Below, one piece after another: positions 21,160 through 50,735 of a stretch of 64,000 nt of DNA (position 1 is its first letter; each line of letters opens with the position of its first letter). Made by a program: the position numbers and the translations under genes. The DNA is taken from assembly GCA_951812525.1 (NCBI GenBank), contig OX638316.1, forward strand, positions 2,970,506 through 3,034,505, written 5' to 3'. The stretch comes from an uncultured Poribacteria bacterium. GTDB taxonomy: Bacteria; Poribacteria; WGA-4E; WGA-3G. The notes beneath the pieces are model-generated. The model was not told where the DNA came from, searched no databases, and was given only the letters and a program-made list of their open reading frames with translations.

Positions 21160-21546
21160 TTAAGATGTCGGAACACCGATTGAGGCGTGGATCTGTGTGA
21201 ACTGCCATGAGTCGTCGTTCTTTTCCAAAACTCCGGTCATCCGCATCACGAATTCCTCTGGCGTGCCTTGCCATTTGAGATGCCAAACTTGGCGCGTGTA
21301 GAACCACGCAACGTCGTCTCGTTCTTGGACGTCAAGGTTAATAAACGTGATGCTGAAATCCTCAGTGCTTGCGACGTGGTTTTGGTAGTACGCAGCAATT
21401 TCTGCACTGCCTTCAACGACTTCATCGGCATCGGTGCCGATCTTCACGTAGTAGGTGGCAGGCAGCATCATTGCAATGAGGGTTTCAGCATCTCTGGCAA
21501 TAAGTGCGTCAAAATACGCTTTTACTGTATCATGCGCATTCCGCAT
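21160..21546 (-). CDS. NTF2-like (SnoaL/DUF4440-type) protein
   Basis: A 128-residue protein of the NTF2-like fold: 'TVKAYFDALIARDAETLIAMM' is the characteristic opening helix pair, followed by 'EIAAYYQNHVASTEDFSITFIN' and mixed strands ('DVAWFYTRQVWHLKWQG', 'FVMRMTGVLEKNDDSWQFTQIH'). Members are ketosteroid isomerase-like enzymes, polyketide cyclases or plain binding proteins. I place the start at ATG 21546 (AGGA 9 bases upstream), which overlaps the preceding gene by 17 bases. The substrate is unknown. Confidence 0.82.
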   Translation of the reverse strand: MRNAHDTVKAYFDALIARDAETLIAMMLPATYYVKIGTDADEVVEGSAEIAAYYQNHVASTEDFSITFINLDVQERDDVAWFYTRQVWHLKWQGTPEEFVMRMTGVLEKNDDSWQFTQIHASIGVPTS

Positions 21547-22120
21547 CGTGAATTCCTGTGAGCGCGTTCCACAAGGCGACACTCATCTGTTCACACGCTT
21601 CGACAACGGTGGTATGGGACTCCGATGGCAATTCGGCGATGCGCTCAAGTAGTATTTCCGCTTCGTGTTCGTTGTGCGAATGTGTTTCGAAGTAGGGTTC
21701 TACGGTTTTTGGGAGTTGGTAGAATGTCTTTAGACCTTCCAATTTCGATTGTGCTGTTGCGGGTTGCTGTGCCTCAAAAGCATAGAGTGCACCGAGTGCT
21801 GTCGCAGGTTCCGAGAAGAGTTCATTTGCGGTTTTGAAGAGTGCTTTTACCTGTGGAATCTGTGCTTCAGAAACAGTGGTATCGAGACCCATGGCGAAGT
21901 CTGCCCATAAGTCGATGTGTTCAGTCTCTTCCGCTGCGATTTCGACATCATCGATTGTCTCCCATCCCTGCGGTATAGTAGAGATGAAAGCACCGTATTC
22001 ACGGGCATAAGAACGGAGTGTGTCGAGCGACAATTCGCCAGCACTCCACGCTTGATAGAAAGGGTGATCGAGTAAGTTGTGATCTGCAATTTTACTGTCT
22101 AATGCTTGTTTGAAATCCAT
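21530..22120 (-). CDS. CADD/TenA-like haem-oxygenase-fold protein, possible diiron oxidase
   Basis: A 196-residue all-helical protein. The opening 'LLDHPFYQAWSAGELSLDTLRSYAREYGAFI' is typical of the PqqC/TenA/CADD group. Carboxylate and His residues sit where a diiron site would form: 'IAAEETEHIDLWADF' (about residues 67-81) and 'YFETHSHNEHEAEILLERI' (about 142-160). The chlamydial member CADD is a self-sacrificing enzyme for p-aminobenzoate formation; whether this one shares that role is inference. It is first in a packed group with the NTF2-like, HAD and 59-aa genes. RBS GGAG lies about 11 bases before the ATG. Confidence 0.78.
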   Translation of the reverse strand: MDFKQALDSKIADHNLLDHPFYQAWSAGELSLDTLRSYAREYGAFISTIPQGWETIDDVEIAAEETEHIDLWADFAMGLDTTVSEAQIPQVKALFKTANELFSEPATALGALYAFEAQQPATAQSKLEGLKTFYQLPKTVEPYFETHSHNEHEAEILLERIAELPSESHTTVVEACEQMSVALWNALTGIHDAECA

Positions 22121-22393
22121 TAAATTAGTTACTCCATTTCATTTTTATGAATAAAGTGCAACGACACGATTTACCTTTCGGACAGGCTAATGTGGTCAGA
22201 GAAATTGTACTTGAGTCGCACGATTTCGTTTGCAAGCTTGCACCGAAAAGAGCTGTCTGTGACATGTTTTTAATATAGCATACGGTATGTATCAGTGTCA
22301 AGGAGGGTATAAATTTTTTAGTGTCATTTATAGTGAATTATAAAAATACATAGACATCATTCTTTCCATGACGGAGGACCTACACCCACACCT

Positions 22394-22417
22394 GTAGGAG
22401 GGGTTTGTAACCCCGAC
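22394..22417. repeat. Palindrome family C (GTAGG...CGAC), copy 1
   Basis: GTAGGAGGGGTTTGTAACCCCGAC, a GGGG/CCCC hairpin framed by GTAGGA and GAC. The same frame recurs at 39804, 39839 and 49466, and a relative lies at 43283. Confidence 0.7.
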
Positions 22418-22634
22418 ACGCTACGATGTCTAGGTAATTCTTAAATCTACCATAGTTTCCGATTTTTTGTTAATTCACGGAGGTTTCACGGAGCATTTCC
22501 TGAGTGTAGGTATCATAAGGGTTCTTGAGATTGAATTTATCCGTTCTCCGTGAAAAAAACAAGATTCTCGCGCGGGTGTCAACTTTTTTTCGATGTGGAC
22601 GTATGTATAATAATGTAAGTTCGACAAGTGTTGT

Positions 22635-22657
22635 ACCACAAACTGTTAGTTTGTGGT
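22635..22657. repeat. Palindrome family A, copy 1
   Basis: ACCACAAACTG-TTAG-TTTGTGGT, an inverted repeat with 8 paired bases. Near-identical copies are at 36926 and 46356, with diverged ones at 32348 and 49667. Confidence 0.75.
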
Positions 22658-22706
22658 GTGCGAGCTGACAGGTATATGTGTTTTGGGATTCGCTGTAAAA
22701 ATCAGT

Positions 22707-22734
22707 TTGAATTAAACGGGAAATCTGATATAAT
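22707..22734 (+). promoter_or_regulatory. Sigma-70-type promoter of the PhyH gene at 22777
   Basis: TTGAAT (22707-22712), a 16-base spacer and a perfect TATAAT (22729-22734). Transcription would start near 22741, leaving a leader of about 36 bases that holds AAGGGG before the ATG. Confidence 0.65.
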
Positions 22735-22776
22735 ACTTGAGGCAATCGGAAGTACTTTTTGCTGAAGGGGACTGTT

Positions 22777-23520
22777 ATGACTGATGAACAAAAATTTATC
22801 TTTGATCTCAAGGGATACCTGTTAATTCCCGAAGTTTTGAGTCCCTCTGAGATTACGTCACTGAAGGCACAAATTGAAATGATCCGCACGAATCCTGAAT
22901 CTTTACCGCCACATGAACGACGGTTTCCCGGTGGAACTGCCTCATTTTTAATTGATCATCCTGTCGTGATTGACGTTCTCCGTGAGATATTGGGTGAGAT
23001 TCGGATGGAATCGAGTTGGTTCACTTATCGCACCGCAGGACAAGGTGGTCCGCCGCCTCATGGTGGGGTCCGAAACGTGAATCCTAATTTCAACTACCAG
23101 TGCCACGATGGGAAGATATACTCGGCGTTGACAAGAGTTGTGTTTGAACTGAATGAAGTTAAAGCCGGTGAAGGTGGGACGCTGTTCTTACCCGGAAGCC
23201 ATAAGGCGAATTTCCGAATCCCTGAAGTGCATAGGCAGACAGATTCTCCGCTCTTTGAGACCTACAGCTGTCCGCCAGGGTCTGTCATTATTTTCACGGA
23301 AAATCTCTGTCATTCTGGCGTTGCGTGGACAAATCCGAATCGACCGCGAATTGCAATCTTTAATTGTTATAATTTCGTTGGATGCCAGTTTCACAGACCG
23401 TCAGTGCCGTTAGATGTTATTGAGGGGTTGCCTCCTGAAAAACAGGCGTACTTCCGCGATGTCTGGGTATGGCATCAGGGTGGTTCTGATAACGGGAAGA
23501 ATCTACGTTACGATGCGTAG
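22777..23520 (+). CDS. PhyH-family protein with HGG instead of HxD
   Basis: A 247-residue member of the phytanoyl-CoA dioxygenase (non-haem Fe(II)/2-oxoglutarate) family. The N-terminal 'FDLKGYLLIPEVLSPSEI' and 'GEGGTLFLPGSHKANF' (about 131-146) are standard. The distal His is H179 ('NLCHSGVAW') and the 2-oxoglutarate Arg is likely R191. The proximal motif reads H95-G96-G97 ('GPPPHGGVRN'), so the usual carboxylate ligand is missing, as in iron halogenases. The start is ATG 22777, behind AAGGGG; an in-frame TTG at 22759 is less likely. The substrate is unknown. Confidence 0.88.
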   Translation: MTDEQKFIFDLKGYLLIPEVLSPSEITSLKAQIEMIRTNPESLPPHERRFPGGTASFLIDHPVVIDVLREILGEIRMESSWFTYRTAGQGGPPPHGGVRNVNPNFNYQCHDGKIYSALTRVVFELNEVKAGEGGTLFLPGSHKANFRIPEVHRQTDSPLFETYSCPPGSVIIFTENLCHSGVAWTNPNRPRIAIFNCYNFVGCQFHRPSVPLDVIEGLPPEKQAYFRDVWVWHQGGSDNGKNLRYDA

Positions 23521-23641
23521 TTTGTCCGCCTGTGGAGGCGTTTGCATAATGTAAAATCTTGAGGCAATGGTGCCGCGCGCACCAGTATGGATATCATGCA
23601 TGGACCCTAAAACAAGGATGCCATCTGCATCGGTGATCTGT

Positions 23642-23932
23642 ATGGCACGGACGGACGCATTGCAAAGTGTCTCAAGGTGGCGCTGGACAGCATTCGGTGT
23701 GATTCTTAGCATTGTGCCGACAGTCAATATTGTCTTGCTGGTTATAAGTGCTGTCATTGTGAGTGTTTTAACGCCCAACATAGATTTGTCATCCTCGAAG
23801 CGACTGGCGTACTATTTCCAAAATCCGGCGCGCTATACAGCGGAATACCGGAACACAACCAGAAGGCTGCGCTGTATATGGACGCTCTATGGATGGCTCG
23901 CCGGTGTTATGATTTTAAATTTCTTTTTTTAG
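23642..23932 (+). CDS. Small two-helix membrane protein
   Basis: A 96-residue protein starting 'MARTDALQSVSRWRWTAF'. Two hydrophobic helices are visible: residues about 16-38 ('FGVILSIVPTVNIVLLVISAVIV') and the C-terminal 'LYGWLAGVMILNFFF'. A basic Tyr/Arg-rich loop lies between ('YFQNPARYTAEYRNTTRRLR'). It ends 19 bases before the DUF202 gene, with its own RBS in between, so the two probably form an operon. The start could be earlier (in-frame ATG at 23567 or 23615). An opposite-strand frame (23503-23781) also looks partly protein-like. Family unknown. Confidence 0.55.
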   Translation: MARTDALQSVSRWRWTAFGVILSIVPTVNIVLLVISAVIVSVLTPNIDLSSSKRLAYYFQNPARYTAEYRNTTRRLRCIWTLYGWLAGVMILNFFF

Positions 23933-23951
23933 GGGAGAAGGACAGGCACGA

Positions 23952-24278
23952 ATGATAGATAAGTCAAGACCTTACACAGGTTTAGAAGACCAGCTTATCT
24001 TACGAGATCATCTCGCGGCCGACCGGACTATCCTTGCCAACGAGCGGACTTTTCTCGCGTATATCCGTACGGCACTAACGCTGTTCGTTGCAGGTTTATC
24101 CTTCGTACATCTCAAAGTATTCGATTCACACGTCGTTGAAGGCATTGGTGCCGTTTTCATTTTACTCGGTATCATCACCTTCTTCGTTGGGCTTGTGAGA
24201 TATAAGCGGATGCAAGAACTGATTCGTAAGATTAAACAGGAAGAACTGGAAGAATTAGGAGAAAAAAACACACCATGA
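23952..24278 (+). CDS. DUF202 (YidH-type) membrane protein
   Basis: A 108-residue integral membrane protein of the DUF202 family. The signature 'LAADRTILANERTFLAYIRTALTLFVAGLSFV' spans residues about 21-52. A second helix 'GIGAVFILLGIITFFVGLVRY' (about 63-83) and a charged Lys/Glu C-terminal tail follow. RBS AGGGGAGAAGG lies upstream. It overlaps the next gene by 4 bases (ATGA). Function of the family is not established. Confidence 0.9.
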   Translation: MIDKSRPYTGLEDQLILRDHLAADRTILANERTFLAYIRTALTLFVAGLSFVHLKVFDSHVVEGIGAVFILLGIITFFVGLVRYKRMQELIRKIKQEELEELGEKNTP

Positions 24279-25300
24279 AAATAAGAGAAGTTGTTGTAAC
24301 TGGTCAGAACCAAGTGGAGCTGCAAACTGCCGAAATAGATACTCCAGTGCTCGCTTCCAATGAGCTGCTGATAGACACGGAATACACCTTTATCAGTAGC
24401 GGAACAGAACTCGCAAATTATACCGGAAGGGAACCGAAGGTTTTTCAGAAGGGGGCGTGGTGTGAATATCCGTGGCGTTCCGGTTATGCGAATGTCGGTA
24501 TCGTCCGTGAAGTCGGGGCAGATGTTACCCGTGCAGCACCCGGTGATCGGGTCTTCACATACGGATCGCATGCCTCGACGATTCGGTATTCACAAGACCG
24601 CCTGGTTGCCCCTGTCAGAGAAGCCGTGGATCCGGCTGTTGTTGCTGCATCACGGATGGCTGGCGTTGCAATGACCGCTATTGTTGTTGGTGAGATTGGC
24701 ACGAACCCGTGGGTGGTTGTTTTTGGATTAGGTCTCGTCGGGAATTTGGCGTCACAGATGTTTCAGATTCATGGGTGCCGCGTTATCGGTGTAGATCCGG
24801 TGGCAGAAAGACGGTCGCTCGCGCAGCGGTGTGGGATCGCGCGCACTGTCGGCGGCGATGCTGACGAAGCGCAAGCGCAGATTCAGGAAATTACGAATGG
24901 CGATCTCGGCAATATTACCGTTGATGCCGTTGGGCATAGCGGTGTCGTTATGCAGGCACTGCGTGCTACGGCGAGTCACGGACAAATCATTATCCTCGGC
25001 ACACCGCGCGTCTCAGTTCCTGGTGATCTAACGGATCTGCTCTCCGAGACGCATCTGCGATGGATTACCATTCGTGGAGCGTTGGAATGGTGCGTTCCGA
25101 TGTATCCCGACATCGGCAATCGGACTTCGCAATGGAGTAAACAGCAGACTATTTTTGACTGGATGGCGCGTGGGCAGCTACATGTTGAACCCTTAATTTC
25201 TCATCGGCTCAAACCCGAGCTGATTAAACAGGCTTACGATGGTCTCCTCAATGAACCGAATGTGTATACAGGGGTTGTTTTAGATTGGACCTCGGATTAG
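24275..25300 (+). CDS. Medium-chain dehydrogenase/reductase (zinc ADH-like)
   Basis: A 341-residue MDR-superfamily oxidoreductase. The GroES-like N-terminal part includes 'YTFISSGTELANYTGREP' and 'RSGYANVGIVREVGADVTRAAPGDRVF'. The Rossmann domain carries 'VVVFGLGLVGNLASQMFQIHGCRVIGVDP' (about 148-176), with the NAD(P)-binding G-x-G-x-x-G. The catalytic-zinc Cys and the structural-zinc four-Cys lobe are not seen, as in BchC-like and other zinc-poor members. RBS AGGAG lies inside the end of the DUF202 gene; translation is probably coupled. The substrate cannot be told. Confidence 0.87.
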   Translation: MKIREVVVTGQNQVELQTAEIDTPVLASNELLIDTEYTFISSGTELANYTGREPKVFQKGAWCEYPWRSGYANVGIVREVGADVTRAAPGDRVFTYGSHASTIRYSQDRLVAPVREAVDPAVVAASRMAGVAMTAIVVGEIGTNPWVVVFGLGLVGNLASQMFQIHGCRVIGVDPVAERRSLAQRCGIARTVGGDADEAQAQIQEITNGDLGNITVDAVGHSGVVMQALRATASHGQIIILGTPRVSVPGDLTDLLSETHLRWITIRGALEWCVPMYPDIGNRTSQWSKQQTIFDWMARGQLHVEPLISHRLKPELIKQAYDGLLNEPNVYTGVVLDWTSD

Positions 25301-25323
25301 ATTGGTGATTAGGAGAGGTTATT

Positions 25324-26214
25324 ATGGAAAAAACAGCATTGTTTCAGAACTACATCCAATCTGAATTGCCGCCGGGACTCAAGTCAAGGCTGGACAGAAA
25401 GCAGGTGACGGATCTCGCGTTTTCACCAGATGGCACGCGACTCGCCGCAGGCGGTGATGGACGGATCTGGATATACGATGTAGCCAGTGGCGCGCAATTT
25501 GCGATGCTCTCTGGTTATACAGAAAAGATTCGGGCATTGGCATTCGCGCCAGATAACTCGCTACTTGCGAGCGGGAGCGAAGACAATACGCTCCGATTGT
25601 GGGATACAGCCACAGCGCGCGAGGTGCTAACACTGGCGGGCGATTCCAATTTGGTGCAAGCGTTGGCATCTTCCTCGCCTGATGGTATTCCGCTTCCGAG
25701 TTGGGATCCGCGCACGGAAAGGTTGCTCGCATCCTCGAATGAAAATCCGGGACGCGTTAGAAGTTTGGCTTTTTCCCCGGATGGCGCAACGCTTGCCAGT
25801 GGGAGTGCTGACGGGCGCGTTCGATTGTGGGCAGTTGAATCCGGTGGGATTTTGACATCTTTCTCAGTACATGATGGTCTCGTTTTGGCGCTGGCATTTT
25901 CCGCCAATGGCGAGGCACTGGCGACCGGTGGTTCGGATACACTCGTTCGACTGTGGGATTTGGACAGCCAACGCCTACTCGCTAATTTAAGAGCACATAC
26001 CGACTCCATCAATGCGTTGGCATTTTCCAATGACGGTGAGCTCCTCGCAAGTGGTGGGAGAGATCGCTACCTGCAATTATGGCGTGTGGCTACCAAAGAT
26101 CTAATATCATCGTTTCCTGTCCAAGAGGGAGTCATCCGAGAGTTAATATTTTCAACAGATGATGAAAAACTTATATGTGCGACGCGGGAAGGTTTCCTAC
26201 TTATCAGGGAATGA
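25324..26214 (+). CDS. WD40-repeat beta-propeller protein
   Basis: A 296-residue protein made of WD40 blades: 'VTDLAFSPDGTRLAAGG', 'IRALAFAPDNSLLASGS...LRLWD', 'VRSLAFSPDGATLASGS...VRLWA', 'VLALAFSANGEALATGG...VRLWD', 'INALAFSNDGELLASGG...LQLW' and 'IRELIFSTDDEKLICAT'. That is six clear blades, plus a degenerate stretch around residues 115-140 ('SSPDGIPLPSWDPRTERLL') where a seventh would fit. No signal peptide is visible. It starts 23 bases after the MDR gene with AGGAGAGG upstream. It probably serves as a protein-binding platform. Confidence 0.88.
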   Translation: MEKTALFQNYIQSELPPGLKSRLDRKQVTDLAFSPDGTRLAAGGDGRIWIYDVASGAQFAMLSGYTEKIRALAFAPDNSLLASGSEDNTLRLWDTATAREVLTLAGDSNLVQALASSSPDGIPLPSWDPRTERLLASSNENPGRVRSLAFSPDGATLASGSADGRVRLWAVESGGILTSFSVHDGLVLALAFSANGEALATGGSDTLVRLWDLDSQRLLANLRAHTDSINALAFSNDGELLASGGRDRYLQLWRVATKDLISSFPVQEGVIRELIFSTDDEKLICATREGFLLIRE

Positions 26215-49886: not shown

Positions 49887-50735
49887 ATGCCTACAGAATT
49901 GACACCACAGGACAGAAGTTTTGCGTTAAGTGCCGATGAGTTGAGGTTTTGGAACGAAAACGGTTATTTAATCCGTTTGAACGTGTTCACCCCCGAAGAG
50001 AACGATGCATTCCGTCAAGTCGCTGAAGACATTGTGGATCAGAAACGTCCGTTCCCACCAGAACACATTGATCGGAACGCGCTCGTCAAAGACGGAAAGG
50101 TTGAGGAGCAAGGTATCTATGCGATGCATAAAATCCATTTCCCTAGCTGCTACGATCCGGAATTCCTCGCACGTGTACGTGATTCTCGGCTAACCGACCC
50201 GCTCGTTGACATCCTCGGTCCAGACATCCTCGGTATCAACACACTGTTTATCTGGAAGGCACCGAAGATTGGTCTCGGTTTCCCGTGGCACCAAGACAAG
50301 TTCTACTTTCGTTCTCGGTTCAAAACCGAAACCACCGTTGGAACGTGGACAGCTATTGATCCAGCAGATACAGGGAATGGGTGTCTCTATGTTATTCCGG
50401 GCAGCCACAAATGGGATATTTTCCAGCACGACGACCTTGAAGGTTCACAACAGCAGGAATTCAAACTGGCACGCGGTGTGCGAGATGAAGACGGTGTCGC
50501 GATAGAGGCACCACCCGGTGCGGTGATCTGGTTTCACAGTCATCTTTTGCATAAGAGCACGGACAACCATAGCCTACGGTTTCGCCGGAGTTTCGTCTCT
50601 CATTACCTCAGTGCACAGGCGGAGTGGGCGAATGGCAGGAGAGGACAACCGGTCATGTGGGTTCGCGGCGAGACCTTCGACGGCAAGGTTAACGAAGTTG
50701 AACGCGATGTTATCCCCATTTCCACGTCCGATTGA
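49887..50735 (+). CDS. PhyH-family dioxygenase, tandem copy 1
   Basis: A 282-residue phytanoyl-CoA dioxygenase-like enzyme. 'ALSADELRFWNENGYLIRLNVFTPEENDAFRQV' is the N-terminal block. 'GLGFPWHQDKFYFRSRF' carries H-x-D, 'GNGCLYVIPGSHKWDIF' the conserved loop, and 'VIWFHSHLLHKSTDNHSLRFRRSF' the distal His and the 2-oxoglutarate Arg. The iron site is complete. RBS AGGAG before ATG. It is the paralogue of the next gene, 53 bases away; most of the central residues are identical. Substrate unknown. Confidence 0.92.
   Translation: MPTELTPQDRSFALSADELRFWNENGYLIRLNVFTPEENDAFRQVAEDIVDQKRPFPPEHIDRNALVKDGKVEEQGIYAMHKIHFPSCYDPEFLARVRDSRLTDPLVDILGPDILGINTLFIWKAPKIGLGFPWHQDKFYFRSRFKTETTVGTWTAIDPADTGNGCLYVIPGSHKWDIFQHDDLEGSQQQEFKLARGVRDEDGVAIEAPPGAVIWFHSHLLHKSTDNHSLRFRRSFVSHYLSAQAEWANGRRGQPVMWVRGETFDGKVNEVERDVIPISTSD

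Follow-up and report, generated by a model that had tools for sequence, protein, structure and literature searches.

A HygX-like PhyH protein of Poribacteria with a probable relocated carboxylate at its iron site

The gene at positions 22777–23520 (plus strand) of the window, a 64,000-nucleotide stretch of the genome of an uncultured Poribacteria bacterium, encodes a 247-residue protein of the PhyH superfamily, which its open reading frame, Pfam assignment and HygX relatives lead us to predict to be a HygX-like Fe(II)/2-oxoglutarate oxygenase. The protein lacks the aspartate of the usual H-x-D motif; its iron is probably coordinated by H95, E175 and H179, with E175, located four residues before the distal histidine, as the putative carboxylate ligand.

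The coding sequence begins with an ATG at 22777, preceded by a stretch which appears purine-rich by eye, and its stop codon ends at 23520; the mechanically called ORF starts at a TTG at 22759. Residues 9–188 match Pfam PhyH (PF05721) with 40.5 bits against a curated cut-off of 22, which places the protein in the PhyH superfamily; none of the NCBIfam models scored above its cut-off against the 247-residue protein. A sequence-only reading of this DNA had described H95-G96-G97 in the place of H-x-D, with H179 and R191 retained, and had set this apart from the other PhyH proteins of the window. Both observations are borne out: the translation has H95, G96, G97, H110, D111, H179 and R191 at these positions, and the only other three PhyH proteins of the window among the genome's scored matches, those at 49887, 50789 and 57268, read H-Q-D, H-Q-D and H-V-D, respectively. 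The genome, a single contig of 5.06 Mb, contains 143 PhyH matches (150 of the 157 first-look candidates were scored), and high PhyH numbers in Poribacteria have already been published (accessible text of PMC3909097). One poribacterial PhyH protein acts on 2′-O-methylated nucleosides, according to the accessible part of PMC12709175.

Canonical PhyH oxygenases, including phytanoyl-CoA dioxygenase (2A1X), EctD and SnoK, have the same fold, distal histidine and arginine as the protein studied here; their proximal motif is, however, H-x-D, whereas ours reads HGG, and it does not therefore have the H-x-D/E expected of a canonical HxD...H enzyme. By single-sequence comparison the closest solved relative is HygX (8.8e-11), which is also the best PDB match to a profile of 45 rows (E 1e-23). 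An AlphaFold2 model of the 247-residue protein is confident (mean pLDDT 90.9, pTM 0.88) and of PhyH type, with H95 sitting in a less certain region (block means of 91 and 84). HygX came top among the matches listed in a Foldseek search with this model, and it was likewise top-ranked among the solved folds listed with VIA-align 2 (Z 22.2, rmsd 4.8 Å, 206 residues), although the Z margin over the runner-up, TlxI (Z 20.2, rmsd 3.4 Å), is modest and the rmsd of the HygX fit exceeds that of the next matches (3.1–3.9 Å).

HygX (PDB 4XC9, 4XCA, 4XCB, 4ZPI) shares with the poribacterial protein both the PhyH-type fold and the HGG proximal motif. Alignments place its motifs at H102-G103-G104, E202 and H206, such that H95-G-G and E175/H179 correspond to H102-G-G and E202/H206; both proteins have the glutamate at the distal histidine minus 4 position, within N-E-A-L-M-H, and a GSHK motif. 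The two are nonetheless only 20–23% identical, and a HygX-type enzyme would be expected in an orthosomycin or aminoglycoside cluster, whereas no sugar-antibiotic cluster is evident among the six neighbouring genes scanned here; because this setting is absent among the scanned neighbours, we do not assign the protein as HygX itself. A near-identical HygX (1e-167 against the HygX chains, with identical motifs) is encoded in a hygromycin B-like cluster on a linear plasmid of Streptomyces sp. SAT1 (825318–837926; L235), where it is surrounded by sugar and aminotransferase genes, with a predicted APH(7″) gene within the same 12.6-kb stretch; these surroundings are as expected for a hygromycin B cluster. 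The abstract of a 2015 PNAS paper on HygX reportedly speaks of variation in metal coordination in this enzyme. The literature searched, including the accessible text of a review (PMC8234114), does not name the HygX metal ligands.

Of the genus's 36 genomes, this one included, 30 carry a match of at least 88% identity over nearly the whole protein; another (G024) holds a 94% identical piece covering the C-terminal half only, and five genomes from other families have a match at 72–75% identity. The 39 loci obtained from the genome collection are all poribacterial. Residue counts were taken from an alignment of the query with 102 relatives (103 rows), using sets of at least 410 bits (48 rows), at least 150 bits (75 rows) and at least 60 bits (83 rows), each including the query; the 20 rows below 60 bits were excluded. 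H95, G96, G97, E175, H179 and R191 are each retained in 48 of the 48 rows of the closest set, so the HGG motif is no sequencing accident. Residue 97 is Gly in 74 of the 75 rows of the middle set and Val in the remaining one, and in the widest set H95 and H179 are each kept in 82 of 83 rows, E175 and R191 in all. E175 is the sole acid retained across the 83 rows, and the sole acidic invariant column of the 45-row alignment; at D60, E78 and E124, an acid is likewise present in every one of the 75 close rows. HGG is the normal motif of the PhyH branch to which this gene belongs.

In the mechanism we propose, Fe(II) would be held by the proximal histidine, H95 (H95-G96-G97, 23059–23067, with Gly replacing the usual Asp), by the distal histidine, H179 (23311–23313), and by E175 (23299–23301), the carboxylate having shifted from H-x-D to the distal histidine minus 4 position, whilst R191 (23347–23349; all on the plus strand) would anchor 2-oxoglutarate. 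This role is predicted from that of such an arginine in the PhyH family, where it anchors the 2-oxoglutarate carboxylate. O2 and 2-oxoglutarate would then generate an Fe(IV)=O species, which would abstract a hydrogen from a C–H bond of the substrate, presumably a polar (sugar-like) compound; the outcome would be hydroxylation or ring closure, not halogenation. In the structure model, E175 is located in the turn right after strand 169–174 and H179 within strand 178–181. The strands bearing the two histidines in the PhyH barrel are antiparallel and lie side by side, so the residue at the second histidine minus 4 would be expected near the residues following the first.

The sequence-only reading had considered that a different carboxylate, for example D111 (23107–23109, plus strand), might reach the iron. 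A different carboxylate probably does so, with E175 as the candidate. D111 is an unlikely ligand, since only 18 of the 48 orthologue rows, and 21 of the 75 rows of the family, have an acid at this position. E124 is also a less likely ligand than E175, as its conservation falls to 76 of 83 in the wider set and its counterpart in HygX is Tyr.

The PhyH domains of this genome were aligned using an iterated HMM (150 rows from 149 ORFs); removal of identical motif contexts left 147 rows, and dropping five without both histidines left 142. Among these, Glu or Asp occurs at the distal histidine minus 4 position in 21 of the 24 domains without H-x-D/E, versus 7 of the 118 with it. The proximal motifs of three domains (L105, L188 and L200) were corrected by hand, the table before correction being 21/25 and 7/117; L188, initially taken for an HKG domain without an acid, was an alignment artefact, the protein reading H-W-D. 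The Fisher value for this association (3e-16) overstates it, since nearly all of the non-HxD rows fall within one 26-row clade (support 96) and few events are represented; when the 142 domains were compared by independent pairs, significance was lost (3 pairs, median p 1). The three exceptions without an acid at minus 4 are L116 (HDG), L162 (HQH) and L119 (HGG), of which L116 has an Asp one residue further from the distal histidine; L109 has both H-A-D and Glu at minus 4. Ser, Asn or Gly occupied the position in 60 of the 117 HxD/E domains of the genome counted before one of the corrections. Eight non-poribacterial plasmid proteins were also compared: both of those without HxD (HygX and a Cupriavidus protein reading L-H-H-G-A) carry the glutamate, whilst the other six have HxD, and a Rhodococcus protein among them bears an Asp at minus 4, against the rule. 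L116 (G000:C1:3044862-3046331) is a double-domain ORF whose first PhyH domain lacks the iron-binding histidines, and in L106, a PhyH domain near G000:C1:426315, the glutamate is kept and the distal histidine is replaced by Gln.

Relatives of L119 give a finer view of the clade; the reading covered 32 of 34 full-length orthologues. F-T-E-x-L-x-H is present in eight HGG rows (L271–L278) and eight HA[AS] rows (L124, L282–L288) of one sub-branch, the distal histidine minus 4 position is not acidic in 36 HRD rows (L118, L279–L281 and 32 tandem partners), and an HGGH group has Pro there in 32 loci. A tree of 47 rows chosen by us, with the motif columns left out, requires three changes at the proximal site and two at the distal site. 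In it a starred branch (99/94) sets HygX and 40 clade rows apart from six HxD rows, although the branch of HygX is itself long and joins another long row. Both HRD groups form a single branch (92/97), and were therefore counted once; of the three independent pairs, two agree with the exchange, one shows no difference and none is opposed, which is not significant (p 0.5). A direction for the exchange can be proposed as the simplest reading of this tree. We consider it an even question whether the whole PhyH clade (21 domains here plus HygX) has moved its carboxylate from H-x-D to E-x-x-x-H, in a manner that appears reversible, given HRD proteins without the Glu, one protein with both acids and the HGGH group with neither.

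The members of the HGGH group (L241, at G000:C1:2118549-2119364, L242–L270, L289 and L290) read HGGH[K/E]G, with Pro at minus 4 and no acid in either place at 32 of 32 loci, and each adjoins an HRD paralogue. An acid is accordingly not strictly required in this clade. Of the domains read, those of this group are likelier than the 22777 gene product to have a vacant iron site; alternatively, they may be non-catalytic partners of the kind present in the TlxI/TlxJ heterodimer.

From the missing aspartate, the sequence-only reading had suggested altered iron-site chemistry, possibly that of a halogenase. The first part is supported, in that no close relative has the Asp whilst another acid, E175, is invariant; the second is unsupported. 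A non-haem iron halogenase, in which the glycine (G97) in place of Asp would give room for chloride or bromide to be transferred to the substrate, is highly unlikely here. H-x-G is a halogenase-type proximal motif, SyrB2 and CytC3, both PhyH-related halogenases, have no Asp at His+2, and the phylum lives in sponges, but the HGG motif by itself cannot decide the matter. SyrB2 and CytC3 match the profile weakly and partially (E 9e-4, or about 1e-3, with no stretch passing alone), whereas HygX, an oxygenase with the same motif, is far closer (1e-23). HGG is thus normal for an oxygenase from a known pathway, and the sequence-only reading itself had named a normal HGG in oxygenases of known function as one thing that would tell against its proposal. 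The invariant E175 would be available as a ligand, and neither a halogenase nor a carrier protein is encoded among the six neighbouring genes scanned. Replacement of the Asp in prolyl 4-hydroxylase by Ala or Gly, moreover, did not convert that enzyme to a halogenase, as described in the accessible part of PMC2767507. Kinship with HygX, the invariant glutamate and this failed conversion are our reasons for disfavouring the halogenase reading.

Loss of the aspartate does not in any case imply halogenation, since human AspH, likewise a 2-oxoglutarate oxygenase without the usual carboxylate, functions with two histidines and a water molecule (accessible text of PMC13168262). An arrangement of the AspH kind, with H95 and H179 alone on the iron, water at the carboxylate place and E175 in a second-shell or structural role, is a rather unlikely alternative; it would account for HGG without an Asp, and the HGGH group, conserved at all 32 loci read with neither acid, is in keeping with it. 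The presence of E175 in 83 of 83 rows, together with the absence of a glutamate there from the HRD branch, would however be unexpected for an unrelated structural residue. That the protein is a non-catalytic PhyH paralogue, serving as a partner or binding protein, is very improbable: the genome does hold degenerate PhyH domains without histidine ligands (the N-terminal domain of L116; L106 at offset 137), and the model closely resembles TlxI, which was solved as one subunit of a heterodimer, but none of the 48 orthologue rows has lost either histidine, E175 or R191. A HygX-type oxygenase with E175 on the iron is the reading we prefer.

The six neighbouring genes scanned encode a HAD hydrolase, a CADD-like protein, a zinc-type dehydrogenase, and WD40, FGE-like and TPR proteins. 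The CADD-like gene (21530–22120, minus strand; TIGR04305 116 bits against a cut-off of 200; Pfam Haem_oxygenas_2) and the HAD hydrolase gene lie upstream and are divergent, and the dehydrogenase gene lies downstream. The HAD superfamily takes its name from haloacid dehalogenases; the hydrolase here passes generic HAD models only, with 66.9 bits against a cut-off of 125.4 for dehalogenase type II. A small 108-residue ORF (23952–24278, plus strand), membrane-like by eye, has its last four bases in common with the beginning of the zinc dehydrogenase gene and possibly shares a transcript with it, so that the oxygenase gene may well be transcribed alone. Across the 39 poribacterial loci, some of which lack flanking sequence, 36 have the zinc dehydrogenase (at least 60% identity) near the oxygenase gene, 30 the CADD-like gene and 28 the HAD gene; the latter two are absent at L059–L061 and L068 despite at least 4 kb of upstream sequence. 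None of the three genes occurs within 5 kb of the 72–75% identical orthologues L229–L232 (the fifth, L233, has only 3.6 kb). A sulfatase and an ammonium transporter occur at both L230 and L231, which come from the same genus, and among the ten ORFs scanned no gene besides the oxygenase is common to L229–L232. The neighbouring genes do not name a substrate. Searches of positions 21500–25400 with Rfam, of a phage collection, and of plasmids with L114 gave no match, and a pattern search of viral contigs returned 30 stretches with the pattern, none of them a relative.

H-x-G in a PhyH protein is readable as a sign of a halogenase; here it is the motif of an oxygenase branch with an invariant glutamate elsewhere, and checking for E-x-x-x-H could avert false halogenase calls in PhyH-rich genomes. 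HygX is a component of hygromycin B biosynthesis, and the poribacterial protein most likely belongs to the same kind of oxygenase. If E175 does bind the iron, this branch would represent a natural facial triad rebuilt from another strand, apparent reversals included.
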